A stretch of 64,000 bases of DNA from Paracoccaceae bacterium (GTDB lineage Bacteria > Pseudomonadota > Alphaproteobacteria > Rhodobacterales > Rhodobacteraceae): assembly GCA_026706985.1 (NCBI GenBank), contig JAPOXR010000016.1:18288-82287 (forward strand). Direction: 5' to 3'. How positions within the stretch are numbered: position 1 is the stretch's first letter; each line of letters opens with the position of its first letter. The notes under the pieces were generated by a model. The model ran no database searches. It worked only from the letters and a program-made list of their open reading frames with translations, and was not told where the DNA came from. Positions 2,161 to 64,000 of this stretch are shown in pieces. The position numbers and the translations under genes are program-made.

Positions 2161-2998
2161 GTCTCTTTGCTTCCAATTCCATCAATGTCGCCCCGATCTC
2201 GGTCAATCCTTCATCCCAATCCACGGCCGTCCGCGCAGTGTAATGCGCCATCGGCAAGGCTTTCTGCAGACAATTGATGCCGGCCCAGAGCCGCGTGTCG
2301 CAAATCATCGCATAAGGTCTGCCCTTGGTTGCGCGCGCCTCTTCAAATGCGTCCAGAAGTTCCGTGATGCCCGTCCCGTTGATGCGCCGTGACTTGAAGC
2401 CGAAAGCCTCGAACTTTTCCGGCACCGGTTCAACGGCGAGGACGTCGGCTACCTGGCCCGAAGCCTGCATGTCGTTGTTGTCGATGATGAAGCAGAGATT
2501 ATCGAGCTTCTGGTGACCCGCGAACATCGCCGCTTCCCAGACATTTCCCTCCTGCAGTTCACCATCGGAGAAAAGACAATAGACCCGCTCATCCAACCCT
2601 TGCCGCCTGAGCGACCAGGCAAGTCCCGCTGACTGGCTCGGACCCTGGCCCAGCGATCCGGCGGTGATTTCGAAACCAAGCTGACCTTCTATCGGGCTTT
2701 GATCCACCGATGTGCCATCGGCATTGTAGGTCTTCAACACATCCATTCCGTAGTGGCCGGTTTCTGCCAGCGCGCCATAAACCATGATCGCATCATGGCC
2801 GTTTGACAAAACAAAGCGATCCTTAAACCAGCCGTCGGCATCGGGACGCAGTTCGTCAAAATACAGGACTGCGGCGATATCCGCGAGCGCGACACCTTGC
2901 GCCGCATAGCCGCCGCGTTGGCGACAGATTTCCAGCACATGCCGGCGGATCCTGGCAGCGATGACTGCAAGATCATTGACAGATTGATTGCGTCTCAT
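2153..2998 (-). CDS. Transketolase-like N-terminal subunit (first split pair)
   Basis: Pyrophosphate-binding half of a split thiamine-diphosphate enzyme, 281 residues from the ATG at 2998. That start overlaps the stop of the partner gene as ATGA, so it replaces the longer track start. Visible family features are NGHDA (His68), GSLGQG (114-119), and SDGELQEG at 144-151 with Asn174, which corresponds to the GDG-x25-N thiamine-diphosphate motif but has Ser in the first Gly position. The usual T-x-GKG segment near the C-terminus is replaced by TRLWAGINCL, so this pair has diverged from housekeeping transketolase. It probably transfers a two-carbon unit from a ketose or ketose-phosphate made in this pathway. 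Related split enzymes act in apiose and sulfosugar catabolism; which reaction applies here is open. Confidence 0.88.
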   Translation of the reverse strand: MRRNQSVNDLAVIAARIRRHVLEICRQRGGYAAQGVALADIAAVLYFDELRPDADGWFKDRFVLSNGHDAIMVYGALAETGHYGMDVLKTYNADGTSVDQSPIEGQLGFEITAGSLGQGPSQSAGLAWSLRRQGLDERVYCLFSDGELQEGNVWEAAMFAGHQKLDNLCFIIDNNDMQASGQVADVLAVEPVPEKFEAFGFKSRRINGTGITELLDAFEEARATKGRPYAMICDTRLWAGINCLQKALPMAHYTARTAVDWDEGLTEIGATLMELEAKRRE

Positions 2999-3969
2999 GA
3001 CGCCAGCCCAGCCAGCCGCGACGCCAACACTTCGGCGTCCAGGCCCAGCTGTGCCCGAATATACGCGAGCGTTCCACCCGGAGCCCACCTGTTGGCCAGG
3101 CCGATACGCGTGATGCGTGGCCCGCCCCCGGTGTCGGAAACAATTTCGGCCACCAGTGATCCAAGCCCGGTAACAATCTGATGATTCTCAATTGTGACGA
3201 TCTGGTCGTGCGCGAATGCGAAGTCGGAAACCTCCTTCTCATTAACAGGCTTGATCGTCGGCACATGCAGGAGCGAATGATCAACGCCGCGTTCGGACAG
3301 CAGTTCCGATGTTTCGAGTGCCCATTGTGTGCCATGACCGCTGGCGATGATGCCGATGCCTTTGCCGGCCTTAAGCGTATAGGTCTTCCCCAACTCGAAG
3401 GTGAATTTGTCCGGATCCAGGATAAGCGGTGTGTTGCCCCGGTGACCCCTGATGTAGGTAAGACCCGGCAAATCCACCGCAATATCGAGAGCGGCGCGGA
3501 AATCCGTCGGATCCACCGGGTCGATTACGGTTGCGTTGGGGATTGCACGCACCATTCCGAGATCCTCGGCTGCCTGGTGGTGGATTCGCGCCGGGTTGGT
3601 GATGCCGGGTGTGAACCCGATCGCAATGTTTGTCAGTCCACCGGTTTCCACATTCGTGCCGGCCCCGGATCCCGTTCCCATGCAGATCAATAACTGGTCG
3701 TAGGCACGACGCGTGATGTAGCAGGCAAAGCAGGTCGCTACAGGTACAAGTCCGCCCTTGGCGACACCTGCAGCCACAGCGAGCAGGTTCTGTTCGGCCA
3801 TACCGACATCAAGATGCTGCTCCGGCAACTCTTTCTTCACCCGCACGACCTGGCAGTATTTGCTCAGATCGGCGCTCATGACCACCACGTCTCCGCGGCG
3901 CGTGCACAAATCATAGCTGATGCTGTCAAAGGGTGCGGAGTCGAATTGGCGCTCACCGGTCAAGAGCAT
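2995..3969 (-). CDS. Transketolase-like C-terminal subunit (first split pair)
   Basis: Pyrimidine-binding half of the split transketolase, 324 residues from the ATG at 3969. This start lies just past the sulfatase stop and removes a 27-residue out-of-family extension in the ORF track. The segment DVGMAEQN carries the conserved Glu (about residue 59) that activates the thiamine ring, and TRRAYDQL is also typical. The C-terminal Rossmann-like domain is intact to the end. It overlaps the N-subunit gene by four bases (ATGA), as expected for subunits of one complex. The gene order, C-subunit before N-subunit, is the reverse of the second pair at 9.8-11.6 kb. Confidence 0.88.
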   Translation of the reverse strand: MLLTGERQFDSAPFDSISYDLCTRRGDVVVMSADLSKYCQVVRVKKELPEQHLDVGMAEQNLLAVAAGVAKGGLVPVATCFACYITRRAYDQLLICMGTGSGAGTNVETGGLTNIAIGFTPGITNPARIHHQAAEDLGMVRAIPNATVIDPVDPTDFRAALDIAVDLPGLTYIRGHRGNTPLILDPDKFTFELGKTYTLKAGKGIGIIASGHGTQWALETSELLSERGVDHSLLHVPTIKPVNEKEVSDFAFAHDQIVTIENHQIVTGLGSLVAEIVSDTGGGPRITRIGLANRWAPGGTLAYIRAQLGLDAEVLASRLAGLAS

Positions 3970-3977
3970 TGACACGC

Positions 3978-5465
3978 TCACGACACCCGGATGGCGTTGG
4001 GAAGCAGAATTTTCTCCAGATGCGTCTTCGCTTCGGAATGGGTTACCCAATCGGGCGGAGGGAAATCGGCAACCATGTCCCAGTCATCGCCGGTCGCTTC
4101 CATATGGGCGGCAAGCCGGGCGTCCAATGCATCCATGCGGGCAAAATGCGCTGGATCATTCACCAGGTTGTTCTGCTCATCGGGATCAGTGCGCAGGTCA
4201 AAAAGCATCGCGCGATGGTCCCTGCGGCGCATGTAAAGCCAGTCCCTGGTGCGGATACCACGCTCGGCGAAGGGCGCATACTCGCCGGGATTGCCGCCGG
4301 TCTGCGTGAATACCTGGTACCAGATCGTATCCCGGTGTTCGCTCGTCACGCCATCGAGAACCGGCAGGTAGCTTTGGCTGTTCCGGCCTTCAGGCATCCT
4401 GATGTCAAGCAGATCAAGGATTGTCGCCATCATATCAACGCCGACATCCACCATGGCGCCGGTGCGGTGCGGCTTGAACCGCGCCGGGTAGCGAATGATA
4501 AGCGGCACCTGCATCGCGGCGCGGTAGGCCTGGTTCTTGATGCCGCAAAAGCTGCCATGCTGTCCAAACATATCCCCGTGGTCGCTGAGAAAGATAACCA
4601 TGGTTTCCTCGGCGATTCCGATAGCTTCGAGATGATCCACAATGCGGCCTAGATTGTGGTCGATATTGTGGATCATGCCGTAATACTCGGCGATGAACCC
4701 GCGGATTTCCGCCTCGGTTTCGACTTCCCCTGTCGGCTTGTTCCCGTGGGCAGCGTGACTCTTGTGCCCTGCGCGGGGATCGCCCCCGCAGAGCACCTCG
4801 TTGCGATGTCTCTGCACCTTGGCCTGCAGTTCAGGATTTGGCACACCGGGCGGTAGTGGAACCTCCTCCGGCCGGTAAATCCGACGCAAATGCGCCGGCA
4901 TGTCCATTGGGAAATGCGGCGGGCCGTAACTCAGATAGCCGAAGAAGGGCCTGTCGACCTTCGCTGCGGAGTTGATGAAATCCAGGAACTGGTCGGTTTG
5001 GTAATCCGGCTCGTATCGCGTCGAATGATAGGCTTGCCCCGTATCATCAAAATAGATGGAGGAGCGGTAATCATGGCCTCGATTGAAGCCAATGAAATGT
5101 TCGAAGCCAAAGCGCCGATCCGGAGGAACGAAGCCCGGTTTCGGCCCGCCTTCCAGATGCCACTTGCCGATATAACCGGTCTGGTAACCCGCATCCTTCA
5201 GGAATTCAGCCAGGAACCCCTGGCCGGCGCGCAGGGGAAAGTGGTTCTGGATCATCCCGTGTCCCTGCGCGTATTTACCGGTCAGGACCGAAGCGCGGAA
5301 CGGGCAGCAGATGGGATAGCTGGCATAGGCTTCGCTGAAATGCACGCCTTCCTTAGACAATTTGTCGATATTGGGCGTGCGGATGACCGGATTGCCCGAA
5401 CAGCCCATCGCGTCATAGCGCATCTGGTCGGGATAGATGATCAGAATGTTCGGGCGCATTGTCAC
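3978..5465 (-). CDS. Type I sulfatase, Cys-type, no signal peptide
   Basis: Arylsulfatase-superfamily hydrolase of 495 residues that removes sulfate esters. The modification site CCPFRASVLTG (Cys53-x-Pro55-x-Arg57) is the Cys-type formylglycine signature, so the protein needs the FGE encoded downstream. Other family elements are PNILII with metal-ligand Asp13, GKWHL at 100-104, and SDHGD near 294-298. No signal peptide is visible: the N-terminus MTMRPNILIIYPDQ goes straight into the first core strand. Desulfation should therefore happen in the cytoplasm after uptake. The GTG at 5465 overlaps the tctA stop; the ATG at 5459 is an equally good start. The substrate cannot be named, because substrate specificity in this family needs comparison with characterised members. 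Confidence 0.93.
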   Translation of the reverse strand: MTMRPNILIIYPDQMRYDAMGCSGNPVIRTPNIDKLSKEGVHFSEAYASYPICCPFRASVLTGKYAQGHGMIQNHFPLRAGQGFLAEFLKDAGYQTGYIGKWHLEGGPKPGFVPPDRRFGFEHFIGFNRGHDYRSSIYFDDTGQAYHSTRYEPDYQTDQFLDFINSAAKVDRPFFGYLSYGPPHFPMDMPAHLRRIYRPEEVPLPPGVPNPELQAKVQRHRNEVLCGGDPRAGHKSHAAHGNKPTGEVETEAEIRGFIAEYYGMIHNIDHNLGRIVDHLEAIGIAEETMVIFLSDHGDMFGQHGSFCGIKNQAYRAAMQVPLIIRYPARFKPHRTGAMVDVGVDMMATILDLLDIRMPEGRNSQSYLPVLDGVTSEHRDTIWYQVFTQTGGNPGEYAPFAERGIRTRDWLYMRRRDHRAMLFDLRTDPDEQNNLVNDPAHFARMDALDARLAAHMEATGDDWDMVADFPPPDWVTHSEAKTHLEKILLPNAIRVS

Positions 5466-6955
5466 TTGCCCATCCGACGCTTGATACGCGAAGTGACCGG
5501 CCCCCAGAATATGGTCAGCAGGAGTGCAGCATAGATCGTGAGACCGATCGGGGTGTCGAAAAACTCGGTCACGGACCCGTCCGCGATGGTGAGCGACTGG
5601 CGCAGGGAATTTTCAAGGATCGGACCCAGCACGAAACCGATGGACAGTGGTGCGATCGAGTAACCCAGCTTGCGTGTGACATAACCCAGTATGCCTGCGC
5701 CGAGCAAAACGCCGACATTGAAGAAAGAATTCGAGACCGAATAGATACCGACAAAGCTGAGAAGCATCACTGTCGGCACGATCACGGCGGTCGGGACCCG
5801 GATGAGCTGGGCGGCAAAGCGGATGGCGACAAGGCCGATGACCATCATCAGAATGTTGATCAGAAAGAGACCCGTAAAGATCGCATACATAAGGTCAGGC
5901 TCTTCCGAGAACAGCTTCGGCCCGGGAGTCAACCCCTGGATCAGGAGCGCGCCCAGCAGCACTGCGGCGGCAGGCGAGCCGGGCACACCAAGTGTCAATG
6001 TCGGAACAAGCGCGCCACCGACCGTGGCGTTGTTCGCTGTCTCGGGCGCAACAATCCCTTCAGGAATTCCGGTGCCGTACGCCTCCGGTGTTTTCGACCG
6101 CCGCTTGGCCTCGGAATAGGCAAAGAATGCACCCACCGCCGCACCCTCTCCCGGAATGATGCCGATGACCGTGCCGATGACCGATGAACGCAGGATCAAA
6201 TCCTTCATGCCTGCCAGGGTCTTGAGGCCGGGCAGTTTGACCACCAGGCTGTCAGTCGAAAACTCAATCCGCCGCGCCACGCGTTCCGCGCCGATCAGAA
6301 CTTCCGACATCGCAAACAGGCCCACCAGGAAAGGCACCAGCGGCAGACCCTCATATAGATTGTAGCTCCCGAAAGTGTATCTCTCGGTCCCGTTCAACTC
6401 GTCCAGCCCCCAGGTGGTCAGGAAGATTCCCAGGGCACCGATCAGCAAACCTTTCGGCAGGCTCTGCCCGGCCACGCGGACAACAACGATCAGGCCGAAC
6501 ACGGAAATCGCGAGATATTCACGCGGCCCGAATTTCACCGCCAGATCGGCCAACAGCGGCGCGATCAGGGCAAGGCATGCGGCACTGAACAATCCGCCGA
6601 TGATCGAACCGGTGAGCGAAAAGCCCAGCGCCTCTCCGCCGCGCCCGGATTTGAACATGTTATGCCCGTCGAGAACGGTGGCAATCGCTGCACCGGTGCC
6701 GGGAATGCCTACCGCGATTGCCGAGATCGATCCCCCGTAAATCGCCGCAGAGTAAATTCCGAGCAGCAGGACCATGGACGCCACCGTGTCCAAATGGAAG
6801 GTGAAAGGAAGTGCCAGGGCGATGGCGATTGGTGGCCCGAGACCCGGCAAAATCCCGATGACCAAACCCAACAGGATGCCGACAACAAGCAGGAGCATTG
6901 TCAGCGGGTCCGCGAGCAGGCCGAAGGCGGATATGAGTGCGGCGGCATCAAACAT
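5462..6955 (-). CDS. tctA: Tripartite tricarboxylate transporter large permease TctA
   Basis: Large membrane subunit of a TTT (tripartite tricarboxylate) importer, 497 residues with about twelve hydrophobic segments. The GLGPPIAIALALPF and PGEGAAVGAFFAYSEAKR segments are typical of the family; the second belongs to the conserved internal repeat. It works with TctB and the periplasmic binder TctC to import a carboxylate using an ion gradient. It begins six bases after the tctB stop and its stop overlaps the sulfatase start, so transporter and sulfatase are presumably co-expressed. The ligand is unknown; the context suggests an organosulfate that carries a carboxylate. Confidence 0.95.
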   Translation of the reverse strand: MFDAAALISAFGLLADPLTMLLLVVGILLGLVIGILPGLGPPIAIALALPFTFHLDTVASMVLLLGIYSAAIYGGSISAIAVGIPGTGAAIATVLDGHNMFKSGRGGEALGFSLTGSIIGGLFSAACLALIAPLLADLAVKFGPREYLAISVFGLIVVVRVAGQSLPKGLLIGALGIFLTTWGLDELNGTERYTFGSYNLYEGLPLVPFLVGLFAMSEVLIGAERVARRIEFSTDSLVVKLPGLKTLAGMKDLILRSSVIGTVIGIIPGEGAAVGAFFAYSEAKRRSKTPEAYGTGIPEGIVAPETANNATVGGALVPTLTLGVPGSPAAAVLLGALLIQGLTPGPKLFSEEPDLMYAIFTGLFLINILMMVIGLVAIRFAAQLIRVPTAVIVPTVMLLSFVGIYSVSNSFFNVGVLLGAGILGYVTRKLGYSIAPLSIGFVLGPILENSLRQSLTIADGSVTEFFDTPIGLTIYAALLLTIFWGPVTSRIKRRMGK

Positions 6956-6961
6956 TGCGCA

Positions 6962-7423
6962 TCAAATCAACTGAATGCCGAGGCCATAGGTAAAGGTGAG
7001 CGCGACCAATGCGGTCATCGCCAAGACGATCACATAGAACCATGGTGCACGGACGCCCATCGCCAACAGGCTGAGTGGCCCCATTACAATCGCCATCGGC
7101 AAAAAGCCGAATGATCGCCATATAACGTAGCAAGCCGCTGCCACGGGCAGCATCAGAATGCCCTGCCGCGCCTCGGTTTTGTTTTCAAACACGGTCCCGC
7201 CTGCGTCACCCCCCGCCGCACCGCGCACCAGGTAGAGATAGCCGATGAAAGCCGCGCAGACGGCCATGATGCCGAGCAGCAGTTGCGGAAAGAACTTTGA
7301 AGGTAAACCGGAACTGGCGAGCAGGCCGGAAGTCGAAAAACCCTCGGCCTCCCAGGCAAAATAGGCGCAGGCCGCGAGTATGATCACAATGAAGATCAGA
7401 TTGGCAGTTCGTTGGCTTAACAT
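6962..7423 (-). CDS. tctB: Tripartite tricarboxylate transporter small permease TctB
   Basis: Small four-helix membrane subunit of the TTT transporter, 153 residues from the ATG at 7423 (MLSQRTANLIFIVII). The ORF track extends upstream another 56 residues of Arg/Gly-rich, unlikely coding sequence. Helices are visible near the start, in the centre (FFPQLLLGIMAVCAAFIGYLYLV) and twice at the end (LLAMGVRAPWFYVIVLAMTALVAL). The gene precedes tctA by six bases. It follows tctC only after a long 0.5-kb gap, so it may have its own promoter or depend on read-through. Confidence 0.85.
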   Translation of the reverse strand: MLSQRTANLIFIVIILAACAYFAWEAEGFSTSGLLASSGLPSKFFPQLLLGIMAVCAAFIGYLYLVRGAAGGDAGGTVFENKTEARQGILMLPVAAACYVIWRSFGFLPMAIVMGPLSLLAMGVRAPWFYVIVLAMTALVALTFTYGLGIQLI

Positions 7424-7931
7424 CTTCAATGCATGCGAAACGGGATGCCGCGTATGTTGACCCGCGCCGGGAGGTCCCCGGCAGCCGGAGTCATCGCCCT
7501 GCAGACCTTTTGCTCCGCATCCTCTAACAGACCTTAGGCGAAACCGGCAAGTGCGCTCAGGTCGCCGGCGCTCCAGCCGTCCGCGCGCCATCCCTGCCGA
7601 TGATTATTCACAGAACCCTTTGCAGCGTGTTCCTGACCGCCCGGTCCGGGCCATGATATCCGCGGAAGCCAAGGAAATTCGAAAACCACGCAGGGCTCCG
7701 CCTCAATGACACATGCACGGCCGCATGCAGTGCATGAGGAGAAAGGAATTGTCAGCATTTGATCGTGGCGACCCCGGGACACGCTGCCGACAGGGAGGCC
7801 GGTCAACCTGGCTGACGATGCACATGGAATCCTGCAATTTCCGACCTGACCCTGGCCCAGCGCGAAGTCACGCACTCACGCTGAGCCAAGGGATTATCCG
7901 CGAATTTCCGTTCCTTGTTCTGGAACAGACC
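7424..7931. other. 508-base non-coding stretch between tctC and tctB
   Basis: The open frames across this gap (for example 7534..7875 on the minus strand) show no family features and no convincing start, so I call it non-coding. An 11-base direct repeat, aacagacctta, occurs at 7526-7536 and again at 7924-7934, where it covers the tctC stop codon. A short inverted repeat CCGGG-N5-CCCGG lies at 7468-7482. The stretch could reduce expression of the membrane genes relative to the binding protein, or could be the scar of a lost gene. Neither reading is proven. Confidence 0.45.
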
Positions 7932-8897
7932 TTACTTGTGAAGAAGGCCCAACCCGTCGAGCAGAGGCGAATAGAGGTCGATGCCGGACTGGATCAATGC
8001 GGTGGTCTCCTCGACCCCGTGAGTCCAGTCGTAGCTGACAGCCTTCGGCACCCGTGAAATAAACGCCTCAGTGCCCATGGATTCAGACGCCGCCAACAGC
8101 TTGTCGACGATCTCCTGCGGCGTGCCGGATTTCACGGCCAATCCGCCATGCACCCATGTTCCGGCCTCTTTGCCCGGAAAAGCCTCGCCCACGGTACGCA
8201 CACCCGGCAGGTCTGTCCCGTAATAGGGCTTGCGGTTGTTATCGAGAATTATGAGCGGGCGGATTTCACCGTCATAGGCATGGATGGACGCTACCTGTCC
8301 CACGGCCACGTCAACCTGGCCGCCGATTAGCCCCGCCAAAGTGGCCGGCACGGTTTTCAGCGCAACCGTTTTGAATTCCAGTCCGAACTCAGATGCCAGT
8401 TGCACGGCCGACAGATTGGGCGGTGCTCCCAAATTGTTGACACCCATGGTCAGCTTGCCGGCCTTCGCGCCCTCAATGAATTCCTCAAAGGTGGTATACG
8501 GGCTGTCCGATCGCACATACAGCGCATTGGATGCCGAGATTCCCGCAAACAGGGGGATAAAATCCTCAAGCGGCTCGTAAGGCGTCTCACGGGTCAACGG
8601 GACAACCATGAAACTCGGCGGCGACCAGTTGAACAGGGTGTAACCGTCAGCCGGCGCCTCCAGCACGCTCATCGTGGCCGGAATATGCGCGCCACCCGGC
8701 TTGTTGACAACATTGACCGGGACACCAAGCGCTTCGCTCAGCACCTCGGCATTCATCCGCGCGACGATGTCGGCGTTTCCACCTGCACCGAAAGACACAA
8801 CATAGGTGATCGGTTTTTCAGGCCATTCCGCGAGCGCTGCGCCCGCAGTGAGGCCAAGTGCCGCCAAGCCTGCGGCAGCCAGTTTGATAAGCTTCAT
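7932..8897 (-). CDS. tctC: TctC/Bug-family periplasmic solute-binding protein
   Basis: Extracytoplasmic receptor of the TTT transporter, 321 residues from the ATG at 8897. That start has a good ribosome-binding site (GGAGGG, eight bases upstream), unlike the track start nine codons earlier. A Sec signal peptide is clear: KLIKLAAAGLAALGLTAGAALA followed by EWPEKPI, the standard beginning of a mature Bug protein. The FGAGGNADIVAR and VNVVNKPGG segments form the conserved ligand-carboxylate binding region. It is the first gene of the minus-strand catabolic run and sits next to a GntR-type gene and a HutC-like operator. The ligand is unknown. Confidence 0.94.
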   Translation of the reverse strand: MKLIKLAAAGLAALGLTAGAALAEWPEKPITYVVSFGAGGNADIVARMNAEVLSEALGVPVNVVNKPGGAHIPATMSVLEAPADGYTLFNWSPPSFMVVPLTRETPYEPLEDFIPLFAGISASNALYVRSDSPYTTFEEFIEGAKAGKLTMGVNNLGAPPNLSAVQLASEFGLEFKTVALKTVPATLAGLIGGQVDVAVGQVASIHAYDGEIRPLIILDNNRKPYYGTDLPGVRTVGEAFPGKEAGTWVHGGLAVKSGTPQEIVDKLLAASESMGTEAFISRVPKAVSYDWTHGVEETTALIQSGIDLYSPLLDGLGLLHK

Positions 8898-8951
8898 TGT
8901 GCAGCCCTCCATGTTTCGTAACACCCGATACCAGCTATCAATGATCTAGAT

Positions 8952-8959
8952 GTATATAC
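8952..8959. promoter_or_regulatory. Putative GntR/HutC operator upstream of tctC
   Basis: The palindrome GTATATAC fits the GTMTAKAC operator consensus of the HutC subfamily of GntR regulators exactly. It lies 55 bases upstream of the tctC start and contains a TATATA that could serve as the -10 element. A related site, GTCCATAC, stands in front of the divergent transketolase gene, and both are followed by CTT. Confidence 0.5.
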
Positions 8960-8997
8960 CTTTCTACGTGACCATCTGAGAGTCAAGTGCACTTTTC

Positions 8998-9723
8998 TCA
9001 CACTGCGCCGGTCGAGAACTCCATTTCGAAAGCCAGGAGGTCACCGGGATAGGACAGCGTGGCCGAATAGATCAATTGTCCGTCCGCATCGAGGAATTCA
9101 CGCTGGACCCGGAAAACCGCGGAATTGACCTTAATTCCCAAAGCCTGTGCCATTGCGAAATCGGCGTATGAAATCGTCATCTTCTGCCGGGCTCTTGCGA
9201 CCGTGACTCCCAGGTCCCGGAAAACCGAAACCACGATCTCGCGTGCGAAACGTGCGGGTGCCCGCTCAAAAATCCGGTCGTCAAGCTTGATATCGACCTG
9301 ACAGAAAGGCTTACCCGACCGTGCATGAATGCGGCTCATGACACGAAAAACGCGCCCATCCACAGCCTTTTCAATTACCGCATCCCTTTGACGCACCGAT
9401 ACCTCCAGCTGCTCCACCATGGCATAGAGCTGTGAAATGTCCGCCTTCATGTGCAGCGTATGCCGCTTTGGGCGTTTGACTTCTTTGACGAAGGTTCCCT
9501 TGCCCGAGTATTTCTCGATCAACCCCTCTTCTGCCAGCGTATTCATCGCCTGAACGACGGTCATGCGTGCCACACCAAGCTGTTCTGTCAACTCGCGCAG
9601 TGCCGGTAATCTTGTCCCTGGTGGAAGATCACCCGACAGGATCTCGTGCCGTAAAACCTCGGCAACCTCAGCGTGGAGGGGAACTGCCGTGCGTTTCATC
9701 GCCTGAAGATTCATGCTAGCCAT
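8998..9723 (-). CDS. GntR-family transcriptional regulator, HutC/UTRA subfamily
   Basis: Ligand-responsive DNA-binding regulator, 241 residues from the ATG at 9723. The 45 residues before it in the ORF track look like non-coding sequence and would run into the divergent gene's promoter. The winged helix-turn-helix spans about residues 12-80 (LRHEILSGDLPPGTRLPALRELTEQLGVARMT, then YSGKGTFV). The rest is a UTRA effector domain with the typical arginine-rich strand (VSVRQRDAVIEK) and the ending SATLSYPGDLLAFE. It stands between the two halves of the catabolic region and is divergent from the second transketolase pair. It is therefore the obvious candidate to control both, with a pathway sugar acid or phosphate as effector. 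Confidence 0.92.
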   Translation of the reverse strand: MASMNLQAMKRTAVPLHAEVAEVLRHEILSGDLPPGTRLPALRELTEQLGVARMTVVQAMNTLAEEGLIEKYSGKGTFVKEVKRPKRHTLHMKADISQLYAMVEQLEVSVRQRDAVIEKAVDGRVFRVMSRIHARSGKPFCQVDIKLDDRIFERAPARFAREIVVSVFRDLGVTVARARQKMTISYADFAMAQALGIKVNSAVFRVQREFLDADGQLIYSATLSYPGDLLAFEMEFSTGAV

Positions 9724-9746
9724 CGTCGTCAACCATAGGCACAAAG

Positions 9747-9754
9747 GTCCATAC
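9747..9754. promoter_or_regulatory. Putative second GntR operator in the gntR-transketolase intergenic region
   Basis: GTCCATAC differs at one position from the HutC consensus GTMTAKAC and is centred in the AAGGT-CCAT-ACCTT inverted repeat. It lies in the 56-base gap between the divergent regulator and transketolase genes, a standard position for autoregulation and pathway control. Confidence 0.4.
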
Positions 9755-9779
9755 CTTCGAAACATAGCATGAGAACCGG

Positions 9780-10607
9780 ATGAGAGCGAAACACAATCTT
9801 GCCGAACTGGAGGCGGTCGCGACACGGCTTCGATTGCATGTCGTGAACATGGTCGCACCGTCTGGCCAGGGTTACGTGCAGCAAGGGTTGGGTGCGGCGG
9901 ACATTTTCACCTCCCTCTACTTTTTCGAAGTCAGGATGAACCCGGCAGATCCGGCTTGGCCGGAAAGGGACCGGGTGTTTCTGACCACGGCGCATAACAC
10001 CGCGATCTTCTATGCGGCACTGGCCGAACGCGGCTTCTTCCCGGTCGCCGATCTCAAGACCTATGTCACCGACGGCTCACGCCTGGAGATCAACTCTTCA
10101 GAGCGCATGGGAAAGTTTGTTGAGGCAACCTGCGGGTCACTTGGACAGGGCCTGTCAGTGGCCATCGGCTGCGCCATGGCTGCCAAGCGCCGGAACCGTG
10201 CAAGCCGCTTTTTCGTCATCATGGGCGATGGCGAGATGCAGGAAGGCCAGATCTGGGAAGCCGCGATGCTCGCCGGAGCCGAGGGCCTCGATAACCTGTG
10301 TCTGATCGTCGATTACAATTTTGTGCAGTCGGAGGGGCCGATGAATCTCGTGATGTCGCTGGAACCACTGATGGACAAGATGGAGAGCTTCGGGTTTGCC
10401 TGCCAGGAGGTCGACGGCAATGACATCGGTGCCTTGCTCGCAGCCTATGACACCGCACGCGCAACCGCGGGCAAGCCGAGCTTTATCAAAGCCAATACGC
10501 TGATGGGAAAGGGCGTGGGCTGCCTTGAGGGATTGATGTTCCACCAACTGCGCTTCCCACCGGCGGTCGCCGATGCTGCGCGCACTGAATTGGAAGCGCA
10601 GCTGTGA
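9780..10607 (+). CDS. Transketolase-like N-terminal subunit (second split pair)
   Basis: Pyrophosphate-binding half of a second split thiamine-diphosphate enzyme, 275 residues. It keeps the full GDGEMQEGQ motif with the downstream Asn in DYN, the GSLGQG loop, and TLMGKGVGCLEG near the C-terminus, all intact. The His of the usual NGHG motif is present but in an altered setting (TTAHNT). Its motifs differ clearly from the first pair, so the two are not a recent duplication. The next gene starts at a GTG that overlaps this stop. It is divergent from the GntR gene with an operator-like site between them. Confidence 0.9.
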   Translation: MRAKHNLAELEAVATRLRLHVVNMVAPSGQGYVQQGLGAADIFTSLYFFEVRMNPADPAWPERDRVFLTTAHNTAIFYAALAERGFFPVADLKTYVTDGSRLEINSSERMGKFVEATCGSLGQGLSVAIGCAMAAKRRNRASRFFVIMGDGEMQEGQIWEAAMLAGAEGLDNLCLIVDYNFVQSEGPMNLVMSLEPLMDKMESFGFACQEVDGNDIGALLAAYDTARATAGKPSFIKANTLMGKGVGCLEGLMFHQLRFPPAVADAARTELEAQL

Positions 10608-11590
10608 ACGAAGCCCTTACCCGACTGGAAGCCGCGGACTTCATCAACCGCTCATTCAAACCGCTGCCACGGACTTACGGCGATGCCTTGGTCGAGGCGG
10701 CGCTGGCTGATCCGCGGATTGTCGCGCTCTGCGCCGATTTGGTGCCGCCTACCGAGACCGACCGCTTCCGCGACGAACTGCCCGAACGCTTTCACAATGT
10801 CGGCATCGCCGAGGCGAACATGATCGGGATGGCGGGCGGAATGGCCCGTTCCGGCGAAATTCCCTTTTGCCACTCCTTCTGCGCCTTCGTCACCAAGCGG
10901 GTGCTTGACCAGATCACCATGCAGGCAGCCTATCCCAACCTACCGGTGAAGATTGTCGGATTTCTGCCCGGCGTGGCGACCTTGCTCGGCGTGTCGCACC
11001 AGGCGATCGAGGATGTTGCGATCCTGCGCGCGGTGCCCAACATGGCGATATTCGAGCCATCGGGACCTGAATACCACGCGGCGATGGTCAAAATGGCATT
11101 GGATTGGGAAGGCCCTGTCTATCTGCGGATGAAGCGGCCGGAGAAAACGCCGGCGGCGTTCACCGCAAAAGAACTGCGGATCGGGAAGGGTGTGATCCGG
11201 TGCCAGGGGAGCGACCTGACCATCATCGCCGCCGGCCTCTGCGTCGCTGAAGCGTTGAAGGCAGGTATGGAATTGGCGGGCGACGGGATCTCGGCACGCA
11301 TCGTCGACATGGCCTCGCTCAAACCAATCGATTCCAACCTGATCCTCAGCTGTGCCGCAGCCACCGGTGCCATTGTCACGGCGGAAAACCACAATGTCAT
11401 CGGCGGGTTGGGGTCCGCCGTTGCCGAAATCCTGGCGGATGAAGGCGTTGGAATTCCCTTCAGGCGTGTCGGCGTGCGGGACCGCTTCTGCGAAGGCGGG
11501 ACAACGCCATATCTCATGCGCAAATTCGGTCTCGACGCACCGGCGATTGCGGATGCGGCCCGGGAAGTCATGCAGAAGAAGTCCGGATGA
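10604..11590 (+). CDS. Transketolase-like C-terminal subunit (second split pair)
   Basis: Pyrimidine-binding half of the second split transketolase, 328 residues. NVGIAEANMIGMAGG contains the catalytic Glu of the family, with Ala where Gln is usual, and FVTKRVLDQI corresponds to the TRRAYDQI helix. The C-terminal domain is complete (TAENHNVIGGLGSAVAEIL is the usual signature). The GTG start overlaps the preceding stop as GTGA. Together with the N-subunit it should form the heterotetramer typical of split transketolases. The substrate presumably differs from that of the first pair. Confidence 0.9.
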   Translation: MNEALTRLEAADFINRSFKPLPRTYGDALVEAALADPRIVALCADLVPPTETDRFRDELPERFHNVGIAEANMIGMAGGMARSGEIPFCHSFCAFVTKRVLDQITMQAAYPNLPVKIVGFLPGVATLLGVSHQAIEDVAILRAVPNMAIFEPSGPEYHAAMVKMALDWEGPVYLRMKRPEKTPAAFTAKELRIGKGVIRCQGSDLTIIAAGLCVAEALKAGMELAGDGISARIVDMASLKPIDSNLILSCAAATGAIVTAENHNVIGGLGSAVAEILADEGVGIPFRRVGVRDRFCEGGTTPYLMRKFGLDAPAIADAAREVMQKKSG

Positions 11591-11766
11591 ACCATGTGTG
11601 TACAAAGTCAATTTGAACCGGAAGCCGGTGCCTGCGGCGGTCCTCCGCCCATCGGCGGCGATCGGGCGGACTGGAACCATGCCGCCCGGCGATGCGGATT
11701 CACACTTCCGGCCGGAAGGTGCGGCTTTTCAATCCGCGGAACACCCGGCCGAATTATCTGACTGAC

Positions 11767-12900
11767 GTGCGTTTTCGAGACACCATACAGATCGCGGATG
11801 TCGAGGTGTTCCCGATCCGGGCGTCAGGCGGCGTATCTCCGAAGATGGCACTCGGCACAATGCCGACGCGGCCCGCCCTGCTTGTCCGGATCAATGACAG
11901 ATCGGGGTGTTTCGGCTGGGGTGAAGTATGGGCGAATTTTCCGCCGCGCGCCAATCTGCACAAGGCACATATCATCGATGATGTAATCGCCGCCCATCTC
12001 AAAGATTTCACCTACACGGACCCGCGTGAAGTGCTGGATGCCCTGCGGGCTGAGCTCTCCATATTCTTCCTGCATGTCGGCCAGGCGCAGGTGTTTGAGC
12101 ATATTCTCGCCGGTATCGACGCCGCTCTGTGGGATCTGACCTTGCGGCATACGGGGATTTCATTTGCGGCGTTCATGAAACTTTCCGAGCCTTCGGCGCT
12201 GTCCTATGCGACATCGATCAATGCCGAGGACCTCGAGACGCTGATCCCGCATCATGCGGATCTCGGGCAGACATATTTCAAACTCAAGGTCGGATTCGCA
12301 GAGCATGACAGCGTTGAAATCGTGCGGCGTGCCGCCATGTTATGCCCGCGGGGTTCGCGTATCATGGTGGACAGCAATCAGTCATGGACTCTTGCGGAAG
12401 CAAAATCCTCGCTGCAGGCAATTGAAGGTTTCGACCCCTTTTTCGCCGAGGAGGCGTTGCCCGCGGATGCACCGATTGCAGCTTGGGAGGAACTGGCCAA
12501 GGCCACACGTATCCCGCTGGCAGGTGGCGAGAATATCTACTCCATCGACCATTTCCTGACCATGACACGCGCCGGGATGCGCGTATTGCAGCCGGATGTC
12601 GCCAAGTGGGGCGGCGTCTCGGGAGCACTTGATCTCGCGGATGCGGTTCCGGAGGACGTGTTGATATGGCCGCATTTCATGGGTACCGCTATCGGTCAGC
12701 TGGCAGCCCTTTCGATCAGTGCCGCAATAGGCCAAGCCTCGGTCTGCGAAGTCGACGTAAATGAAAACGCGTTGCGAACCAGGCTTTGCGGCAGTGTCAT
12801 CACTATTCAAGATGGCAAAGTGGCGCTTCCCTCGGAGCCTGGCCTGGTCAGACCGCCCGACATCGAGATTCTCACAGAGTATTTGGAACGGGTATACTGA
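11767..12900 (+). CDS. Mandelate racemase / muconate-lactonizing enzyme family (enolase superfamily)
   Basis: Metal-dependent enzyme that abstracts a proton alpha to a carboxylate, typically a sugar-acid dehydratase or racemase. The core shows FKLKVGF (K-x-K on strand two), the metal ligands in MVDSNQSW, FAEEAL and GGEN, and the His-Asp dyad in LQPDVAKWGG and WPHFMG. That pattern puts it in the mandelate racemase subgroup. I chose the GTG at 11767 (about 377 residues) because upstream residues in the track do not fit the family; the ATG at 11692 remains possible. It is followed five bases later by the flavoprotein gene. In context it probably dehydrates an aldonate or uronate-derived acid produced in this pathway. 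Confidence 0.9.
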   Translation: MRFRDTIQIADVEVFPIRASGGVSPKMALGTMPTRPALLVRINDRSGCFGWGEVWANFPPRANLHKAHIIDDVIAAHLKDFTYTDPREVLDALRAELSIFFLHVGQAQVFEHILAGIDAALWDLTLRHTGISFAAFMKLSEPSALSYATSINAEDLETLIPHHADLGQTYFKLKVGFAEHDSVEIVRRAAMLCPRGSRIMVDSNQSWTLAEAKSSLQAIEGFDPFFAEEALPADAPIAAWEELAKATRIPLAGGENIYSIDHFLTMTRAGMRVLQPDVAKWGGVSGALDLADAVPEDVLIWPHFMGTAIGQLAALSISAAIGQASVCEVDVNENALRTRLCGSVITIQDGKVALPSEPGLVRPPDIEILTEYLERVY

Positions 12901-61777: not shown

Positions 61778-62311
61778 TCACGTCTGCTTCGTGACCTGGG
61801 AATATTCCAGATCCACAGGCGTTGCCCTGCCGAATATCGAAACCGACACTTTCAGCCGCGCCGCTTCGGCATCCACTTCCTCCACCATTCCCGAAAAGCC
61901 TTCAAAGGGACCGTCGGTGACATTCACCATTTCGCCGACATCATACATGATCAATGTCCGCGGCTGTTCCGCCCCTTTCTCGACCCTCTGCAGGATCGCA
62001 TCCACTTCCACATCCGGCATCGGCGAAGGTTTACCTTCGGGACCGAGAAATCCCATAACCCGGTTTACCGATTTAATCAGGTGGTAACCCTCATCGGTCA
62101 TCTGCATCCTGATCATGATGTAACCGGGCAGCAGCCTGCGTTCGACATCGGTCGGCTTGCCGCGGCGGTATTCCGCCACTGTCTCAGTCGGTACCACAAT
62201 CTGTTTGATCTGCTTGTCCAGGCCTTTCTGAACCACAAGCGCCTTGATCTGCTCGGCCACCCGCTTTTCGTAATTCGAAAGCACACTGACTGAAAACCAA
62301 CGCATCGCCAT
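61778..62311 (-). CDS. nusG: Transcription termination/antitermination protein NusG
   Basis: Universal elongation factor that links RNA polymerase to Rho or the ribosome, 177 residues from the ATG at 62311 (MAMRWFSVSVLSNYEKRVAEQI); the track adds 14 residues. The NGN domain ends LLPGYIMIRMQMTDEGYHLIKSVNRVMGFLG, and the KOW domain contains VNVTDGPFEGFSGMVEEVD. The secE gene that normally precedes nusG is not found upstream within the window. Confidence 0.97.
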   Translation of the reverse strand: MAMRWFSVSVLSNYEKRVAEQIKALVVQKGLDKQIKQIVVPTETVAEYRRGKPTDVERRLLPGYIMIRMQMTDEGYHLIKSVNRVMGFLGPEGKPSPMPDVEVDAILQRVEKGAEQPRTLIMYDVGEMVNVTDGPFEGFSGMVEEVDAEAARLKVSVSIFGRATPVDLEYSQVTKQT

Positions 62312-62743
62312 ATCGCCGAACCCTTGCGTCGCCGACCTGTCCGGCGCACTCATAAAAGAACCTGTGGAAACTCCATAGCAAAGCGCGCCTGCACGCCAAC
62401 CCGGCGCACAGCGCGAATCAGGAAATACTCATATAGCTTCAGCACCGGTGATGTGCAAGCACAGTACATACAGCCAATTTGGGCCAGGACCTGTAACCTA
62501 TGTAGCGGCAATCAAGATGGCAGTTCAGCGAAAATCAGCCATATCCGCAATCGTCAGTAATTAACGGGTTGACCCTACACTTCCGGACACGAGGCGGCAA
62601 AGGAGCACCCGCAGAAACTCATCAGTCTATTTGTCCATACTCCGCAGCGGAGGGGCTACGAAAACGAATGGTATGTCTTCAGGTCTAGCTGGCCCATATT
62701 GACTCAAACCAGACTGCAGCTGACTCCATATCGTTCATAGTGT
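62312..62743. other. 432-base non-coding stretch upstream of nusG
   Basis: I looked here for secE and a tRNA-Trp gene, the usual upstream neighbours of nusG, and saw neither on either strand. Open frames are short and shadow-like. It holds a plausible nusG promoter and a small inverted repeat, CTCCGC-A-GCGGAG, near 62640-62652. Confidence 0.55.
62430..62458 (-). promoter_or_regulatory. Putative nusG promoter
   Basis: On the minus strand TTGCAC (62458-62453) and TATATG (62435-62430) are 17 bases apart, about 120 bases before the nusG start. The -35 match is weak and the -10 fair. Confidence 0.35.
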
Positions 62744-63478
62744 TCAGAACTTCAGATCCACGGAGTCCCGAGGTGTGGCAAGAACCTTGAGAACTCTGCT
62801 GTGGGCCTTGATCCACTCCCGCTTATGAGGGGTGATCCAAGAGGTGATCTCCAAGATATTTGCGTAGTCTTGTTCGAGATGCCGGGGGAAGACCGGCTCG
62901 TGATGCGCAATCCGGTTCCTGAATGTTCTAAGGAAGTTCAGCGGCGTGTGGGCGTTCTTACTGGAAAGTCTGGCTGCGTGTGGGAACGCCGATCTGAGGG
63001 CAGGCCGCCAAAGCGTCATTTCGTAATTGGCCTTCGTTCCGGTCTTCCGGTCAATGAGCCCCCCTGGTCCCAGCAAAGAGACCCAGAAGCCGAAGGACAG
63101 TGAAGCAACCACCTGGGGTGGATGGGGTGGATCGTCGGGATATTTGTCCTTACGAAGGTCCCGTTTGGTTTGCTCGATCCGTGCGAGACAACCGCCGTCG
63201 AGGCCGGTCTTGCTGTTATCATACCACGCCTGTCCATACACGGCTGCCAGTTCACGGTTCATTGCATTGCGGAGCGCAACCTCCAAGGCCTGCAGCGGAC
63301 CATAGAAAGCGGCGCTGATGGCCGTGTTCCACGTGTAGAGCCTGACCGCATCGGCGCGGTCGCCTCCAGTTACGGTCAGATATGTTCTAAGCCGGTCTGC
63401 CGAGAGCGAGCCCTCCAGCTCATCAAGCATCTTACTGTTCAGGTTAAAATTCTTGACATCTGGAATGGGGATGGTCAT
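62744..63478 (-). CDS. Abi_2-family abortive-infection-like protein with HEPN motif
   Basis: A 244-residue protein resembling the Abi_2/AbiD-F family linked to phage resistance. AVRLYTWNTAISAAFYGPLQALEVALRNAMN (about 44-74) and FLRTFRNRIAHHEPVF (182-197) are the family blocks. The latter contains Arg187-x4-His192, the R-x4-6-H signature of HEPN ribonucleases. The partner, trigger and activity are unknown. It lies on the same strand as nusG, 432 bases upstream, and 85 bases after a small helix-turn-helix gene. The position, in place of secE, suggests acquired DNA. Confidence 0.82.
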   Translation of the reverse strand: MTIPIPDVKNFNLNSKMLDELEGSLSADRLRTYLTVTGGDRADAVRLYTWNTAISAAFYGPLQALEVALRNAMNRELAAVYGQAWYDNSKTGLDGGCLARIEQTKRDLRKDKYPDDPPHPPQVVASLSFGFWVSLLGPGGLIDRKTGTKANYEMTLWRPALRSAFPHAARLSSKNAHTPLNFLRTFRNRIAHHEPVFPRHLEQDYANILEITSWITPHKREWIKAHSRVLKVLATPRDSVDLKF

Positions 63479-63563
63479 ATACGTCTCGTTAGCCTCGGAC
63501 CCGCCTCTGCCTCAGGTATGCGCCCGGGGCTCAGCTTTTTGGGACACTATAGTTGCTAGTTGT

Positions 63564-63968
63564 TCAACTTACGCTAGCAGATGGCTTGCGTTTCGGCTTG
63601 TAGCCTCTCTTTGTTACAGCTTTGCGCTCGCTCTTCACGTCTTCTTCAACCTTGCTGAATTCTGGCTCCAGTTCAGCGATGTAACGTTGCACTTGTCTCT
63701 CACCCAGTCCGAGCCGTTCTGCCAGAAGTTTCTTTCCCGGGTGAGGTTTGCGAGCTTCATCCCACCAGAAGTCACAGAGTTGGATGAGAACAGCAAGATG
63801 AGTCGGATTCAAGCCGATTCTTTGCTGTGCTTTCAGAAGCAGGGACGGAACAATACAGAAGCCGAGTTTCATGACCTTCTTACCCCATTTTTTTTCCGAA
63901 ACCCTGCCAGATTTGGAAGGATGGGGCTGGACAACATTCCCACTAGCCTCGATAACCAACGACCGCAA
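63564..63968 (-). CDS. Small helix-turn-helix protein of unknown function
   Basis: A 134-residue frame starting at TTG; GTG 63902 (VSEKKWGKKVMKLG) or ATG 63872 are alternative starts, and the true start is uncertain. The core KLGFCIVPSLLLKAQQRIGLNPTHLAVLIQLCDFWW is followed by a helix-turn-helix, KKLLAERLGLGERQVQRYIAELE, like that of replication-initiator or plasmid-type winged-helix proteins. The C-terminus is Lys/Arg-rich (RGYKPKRKPSASVS). Related proteins occur in accessory regions; function unknown. It precedes the Abi-like gene on the same strand and could regulate it. Confidence 0.65.
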   Translation of the reverse strand: MRSLVIEASGNVVQPHPSKSGRVSEKKWGKKVMKLGFCIVPSLLLKAQQRIGLNPTHLAVLIQLCDFWWDEARKPHPGKKLLAERLGLGERQVQRYIAELEPEFSKVEEDVKSERKAVTKRGYKPKRKPSASVS

Positions 63969-64000
63969 TTGATGTGAGGCCTTCCGCCTTTGTTCACAGG

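Follow-up and report, generated by a model that had tools for sequence, protein, structure and literature searches.

The stretch of DNA analysed here (the window) comprises 64,000 nucleotides of a Rhodobacteraceae genome (G000), and corresponds to positions 18288-82287 of contig C35, with its right edge coinciding with the end of that contig. The features near this edge are as follows, in window coordinates:

61778-62311, minus strand: nusG (TIGR00922 equivalog, 191 bits); the frame reaches 62353, and the conserved ATG at 62311 is placed by alignment with relatives
62414-62419, minus strand: GATTCG core of the nusG-leader hairpin, by alignment; the arms are degenerate in the genus and covariance model R1 gives this copy no score
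62430-62458, minus strand: candidate nusG promoter TTGCAC-17-TATATG, by alignment; weak consensus, at a position matching the CTTGA-N17-TA of relatives
62744-63478, minus strand: intact Abi_2 gene (AbiD/AbiF-type HEPN), 244 aa, by PF07751, the PD-T4-5 profile and motif alignment
63564-63942, minus strand: HTH_36 gene, partner of the Abi gene, by PF13730 and alignment with three plasmid homologues
63943-63946, plus strand: CTAG, presumed IS target-site duplication; the identical four bases adjoin the repeat in 6 of 8 aligned copies
63947-64000, plus strand: one end of an unassembled IS, and the contig end; a 31-bp terminal repeat (63947-63977) plus 23 bp, with 10 exact repeat copies at contig ends, five per end type

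The usual neighbour of nusG is secE. An earlier note on this DNA had reported that the 1.7 kb preceding nusG contains neither secE nor tRNA-Trp, and that an Abi/HEPN gene and an HTH gene stand there instead. Both observations are borne out: a tRNA scan of the 64-kb window finds no tRNA anywhere, positions 62312-64000 hold no SecE frame, and the two minus-strand ORFs exceed their Pfam cut-offs (33 bits against 25.6 with PF07751 for the Abi ORF; 42.3 bits against 25 with PF13730 for the HTH ORF, 63564-63968). Nor does secE hide in a missed frame, as that note had allowed, since a single SecE match in all of G000 exceeds the Pfam cut-off, and it lies on another contig (C53:2100-2261). The search outside the window that it proposed finds secE and tRNA-Trp there together, in the following setting on G000:C53:

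412-1842: pyk
1896-1971: tRNA-Trp
2061-2276: secE, 71 aa
12156: rplT
12611: pheS

Between secE and rplT lies a cargo of approximately 9.7 kb (2277-12150), whose ORFs include a methylase-like and a hydratase-like gene, a TOTE AEP-type primase-helicase (5503-8001) and an AAA_14/DUF4143 ATPase. The contig itself starts within an ISAs1-like transposase fragment (C53:1-243), just upstream of pyk. In two relatives from the same genus (G002 and G003) the tRNA-Trp and secE genes likewise sit between pyk and rplT-pheS, with nusG on another, long contig; secE and nusG are both well away from the contig ends there. The cargo differs in position among the three genomes: it follows secE in G000, it consists in G002 of two large genes (4.7 kb) separating pyk from tRNA-Trp, and in G003 it occupies the 5.6 kb between tRNA-Trp and secE (L076:2161-7772), where HD-domain and CoiA-like genes are included. 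Across 11 further genera of the family, the distance from pyk to pheS is 0.9-3.2 kb, both genes being on one strand with no secE between them, which argues that the pyk-pheS neighbourhood is old and the presence of secE within it new.

The fourth member of the genus, G001, retains the canonical tRNA-Trp-secE-nusG order; its assembly lacks pyk and pheS, and its pyk-pheS site is not visible. A FastTree phylogeny of RpoB, RpoC, NusG and L11 resolves as (G017,(G001,(G000,(G002,G003)))) with support of 1.00 at each node. As G001 branches first within the genus, one relocation of tRNA-Trp and secE after the split from G001 suffices to account for the three genomes in which they stand apart from nusG. 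To gauge how unusual such a separation is, we sampled 120 family genomes with both genes listed, almost all from different genera. In 115 of these secE and nusG share a contig and strand, with a median gap of 220 bp; in eight family genomes the two are more than 1 kb apart. The earlier note had also weighed whether its arrangement might be common in the lineage, and the answer depends on the rank considered: the missing secE is common in the genus and is not so in the family. The two genes fall on different contigs in five of the 120 genomes (G000, G003, G004, G079 and G077). One of these, G077, was set aside, its separation being an assembly break only, with the secE contig running into nusG. 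Separation is rare, and is found in at least three genera. Neither of the other two separated genomes, G004 (L077, L078) and G079 (L128, L129), groups with the window genus in the four-protein tree.

What now occupies the vacated joint differs from genome to genome: a class I/II aminotransferase-fold gene in G002, an AAA_14/DUF4143 ATPase and HipA among others in G003, and the IS, HTH and Abi genes in G000. Elsewhere in the family, inserts between secE and nusG include cytochrome b561 and an aminoglycoside N-acetyltransferase-type gene; the joint is permissive, and is no dedicated spot for defence genes. These comparisons bear directly on the proposal that a defence island inserted at the secE-nusG joint and displaced secE, which would then lie just past the contig end with the Abi and HTH genes inside one large insert. 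Inserts of 0.8-4 kb between the two genes in other family members, and a window that stops at an assembly break, lend this some plausibility. It is nevertheless already contradicted by the assembly of C53, where secE and tRNA-Trp are contiguous with pyk and then, via the cargo, with rplT-pheS, and by G002 and G003, where secE has left nusG for the same new location with no Abi or HTH gene at nusG; we regard it as very improbable. The earlier note had offered "a defence-type insertion or a rearrangement" as its explanation. Both did occur, as separate events, and it is the insertion as cause of the separation that fails, because Abi and HTH genes are absent from every nusG locus examined in relatives.

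PD-T4-5 is the best PADLOC profile for the Abi protein (4.5e-18; profile positions 15-213 of 309), and the Arg187 and His192 that the earlier note had singled out are where it placed them, as R187 N R I A H192 within RNRIAHHE, an R-x4-H motif shared by every one of the 26 aligned sequences that extend over it. At a threshold of 1e-15, only 20 genomes out of 385 in the class have a match, and besides G000 just one of these is from the same family; the nearest plasmid relatives (54-58%) reside on Ancylobacter, Bosea and Acetobacter plasmids. Phage records hold remote relatives only (≤33% identity), none was confirmed in IMG/VR, and a search of solved structures by sequence gave none that was credible. 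With Pfam Abi_2 above cut-off and the R-x4-H HEPN motif, the protein resembles the Abi_2/AbiD/AbiF HEPN family (Anantharaman 2013, PMC3710099), to which AbiF of C. difficile (PMC12373285) belongs, and on these grounds is predicted to be a HEPN RNase acting by abortive infection. In contrast to AbiF, its partner is an HTH_36 protein, and no Rfam match to the abiF RNA was obtained at the window or at the five loci representing this gene and its close relatives. PD-T4-5 is a plasmid-borne, distant relative of AbiF/D that provides abortive defence against T4 (Vassallo 2022, PMC9519451). Many relatives of the window protein are likewise plasmid-borne, whereas the match spans 199 of the 309 profile positions and the window gene has its HTH partner.

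That partnership is recurrent. HTH_36 precedes Abi by approximately 75-93 bp on the same strand on plasmids of Ancylobacter, Bosea 685 and Bosea AS-1 and in G386 and G480, the spacing here being 85 bp, and the Acetobacter copy of Abi sits amid restriction-modification and toxin-antitoxin genes. HTH_36-Abi_2 is, as judged from these arrangements, a recurrent pair of alphaproteobacterial plasmids and islands, in which the HTH protein is presumably a regulator; homology, together with the plasmid and defence-gene company of the relatives, points to a role in defence. A protein of approximately 1,330 aa is encoded directly downstream of the pair on the Ancylobacter and Bosea AS-1 plasmids (L157:4730-8716; L159 from 4709) and is absent from the window; it is a possible third component of the module. 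The window copy of the HTH gene does not match the intact gene of approximately 172 aa found in the plasmid modules. The IS cuts its 5' end, so that the first codons are replaced by IS sequence, and a 35-residue in-frame deletion at approximately 63671 has removed the wing segment (EKEGLVQRI...KLQA of relatives).

One might suppose that the pair has been co-opted for regulating nusG or protecting the nusG-rpoBC operon, and that its position is functional, given that both genes lie on the nusG strand, 432 bp upstream in the case of the intact Abi gene. This supposition strikes us as scarcely credible, as the pair is found at nusG in one genome only, its HTH member is IS-truncated and lacks the wing segment, and its relatives are on plasmids or beside an integrase-like ORF, away from nusG.

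The 54 bases that end the window are one end of an IS. The 31-bp CCTCRATAACCAACGACCGCAATTGATGTGA has 10 exact copies in G000, all within 54 bp of contig ends, and its variable base is G in five copies and A in five, with distinct adjoining sequence for each type. This is the signature of five unassembled IS copies with near-identical terminal repeats. The terminal repeat, searched against plasmids, gave no match. Since the window stops at this contig and IS end, G000 sequence past 64 kb is not directly readable. An attempt to pair the IS ends by target duplication failed, CTAG being common to most copies, and synteny was used instead. Contig C5 terminates in the other IS end type, and carries a methyltransferase (52% to its G001 counterpart) followed by an ORF with 58-62% to G001, G002 and G003 (62% to G001). 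Its further genes, encoding a ParC-like protein, an SDR and an EtfB-like protein, are found likewise in G002 and several other family members. The gene order and orientation of C5 match the region upstream of tRNA-Trp-secE-nusG in G001 and upstream of nusG in G002 and G003. We infer that C5 is the other side of the gap. The resulting C35-IS-C5 join is drawn from synteny and unassembled, and all four genus members are draft assemblies. That the separation of secE is itself mimicked by chimeric contigs, through misassembly or misbinning, is the least probable reading of all: G000 is a draft of 75 contigs and C35 ends in a repeat, but the order pyk-(tRNA-Trp, secE)-rplT-pheS recurs in three separate assemblies, secE lies 16-18 kb into its contig in G003 and G002, and each genome has a single SecE over the cut-off.

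Taken together, we consider it highly probable that the locus has a history of two steps, namely relocation of tRNA-Trp and secE, followed by arrival of the HTH_36-Abi_2 module and the IS in the vacated joint. In the first step, which the comparisons above show, the tRNA-Trp-secE unit left its site upstream of nusG in one branch within the Rhodobacteraceae genus and was re-established between pyk and rpmI-rplT-pheS. The nusG gene remained with rplKA-rplJL-rpoBC, where an apparent promoter and leader of its own would keep both units expressible. In the second step, unrelated cargo would have entered the vacated joint separately in each descendant. That of G000 would have received a plasmid-type HTH_36-Abi_2 module, and the IS would then have landed in the HTH gene at its 5' end, breaking the assembly at 64000; this order of insertions is the one that we infer. 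What took place is the break-up of an operon by a known kind of rearrangement, along with the arrival of a known kind of defence gene, and there is no new system here.

The least expected by-product of this analysis is the nusG leader hairpin. Alignment of the 170 bp before nusG reveals a promoter-like CTTGA-N17-TA element and, 101-118 nt before the gene across Rhodobacteraceae, a hairpin GGCGYGC-nnCGATTCGnnnn-GCRCGCY followed by a T-run. Examples in secE-nusG spacers are at G006:C1:107865-107901, G008:C30:1048-1084 and G016:C1:874337-874373. Over 19 sequences, pairing holds in 99.2% of helix cells and in 14-63% when the helix is slid, and covariation support is modest because two pairs alone show double changes. 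A covariance model gave 34 matches at E <1e-5 in 61 family genomes, of which 33 are beside a listed secE or nusG, the 34th being in a genome whose secE and nusG genes are not listed. We also entertained the hairpin as a terminator of secE, and rejected it: the hairpin remains beside nusG both in genomes whose secE is carried on a different contig (G004, G079) and in those whose secE is 0.8-2.1 kb off behind an insert (G080, G084, G118, G121, G203, G209), and as such belongs to nusG rather than to secE. Rfam 15 has no match to clean hairpin copies, and Rfam searches of the window and relatives, at gathering and relaxed thresholds, gave nothing of use. In the window genus the hairpin is reduced to its GATTCG core. 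A sigma-70 and terminator scan upstream of nusG in the window found nothing, and the nusG promoter is consequently argued from alignment.

From these alignments, the approximately 220-bp secE-nusG spacer appears to hold a dedicated nusG promoter and leader in this family, and it is probably because nusG has its own leader that the separation is tolerated. A stronger proposal is that Rhodobacteraceae nusG forms an independent transcription unit under an attenuator-like leader, in which a covarying hairpin of 7 bp, its CGATTCG loop strongly conserved, is accompanied by a U-run approximately 100 nt upstream; we advance this tentatively, and with more doubt than conviction. Such a leader would make secE dispensable as a neighbour, and it has decayed in the present clade. 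The hairpin may serve in sensing of NusG or of the elongation complex, and in autoregulation. In any case, it is a candidate for an unlisted regulatory RNA of a universal transcription factor.

The locus illustrates that a highly conserved joint can come apart with both genes preserved, tRNA-Trp-secE moving as a block and nusG keeping its leader, and that the emptied joint then offers mobile cargo a place to insert. It is comparable in this respect to a published cluster reconstruction in Gammaproteobacteria and Bacilli, with which it shares the insertion and disconnection of genes within a strongly conserved cluster, and for which duplications and transposable elements were proposed as drivers. 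It differs in being alphaproteobacterial and in that tRNA-Trp moves with secE to pyk-rplT-pheS. On a practical level, a neighbour missing at a contig edge should be sought in the rest of the genome before its absence is given a functional explanation. As a candidate two-gene defence module, the HTH_36-Abi_2 pair lends itself to testing. Last, the end of another contig (L112:11881-13818, at the end of G000:C42) holds an AAA gene resembling McrB that is apparently interrupted by the same IS, which may thus have struck more than one defence-type gene in G000.
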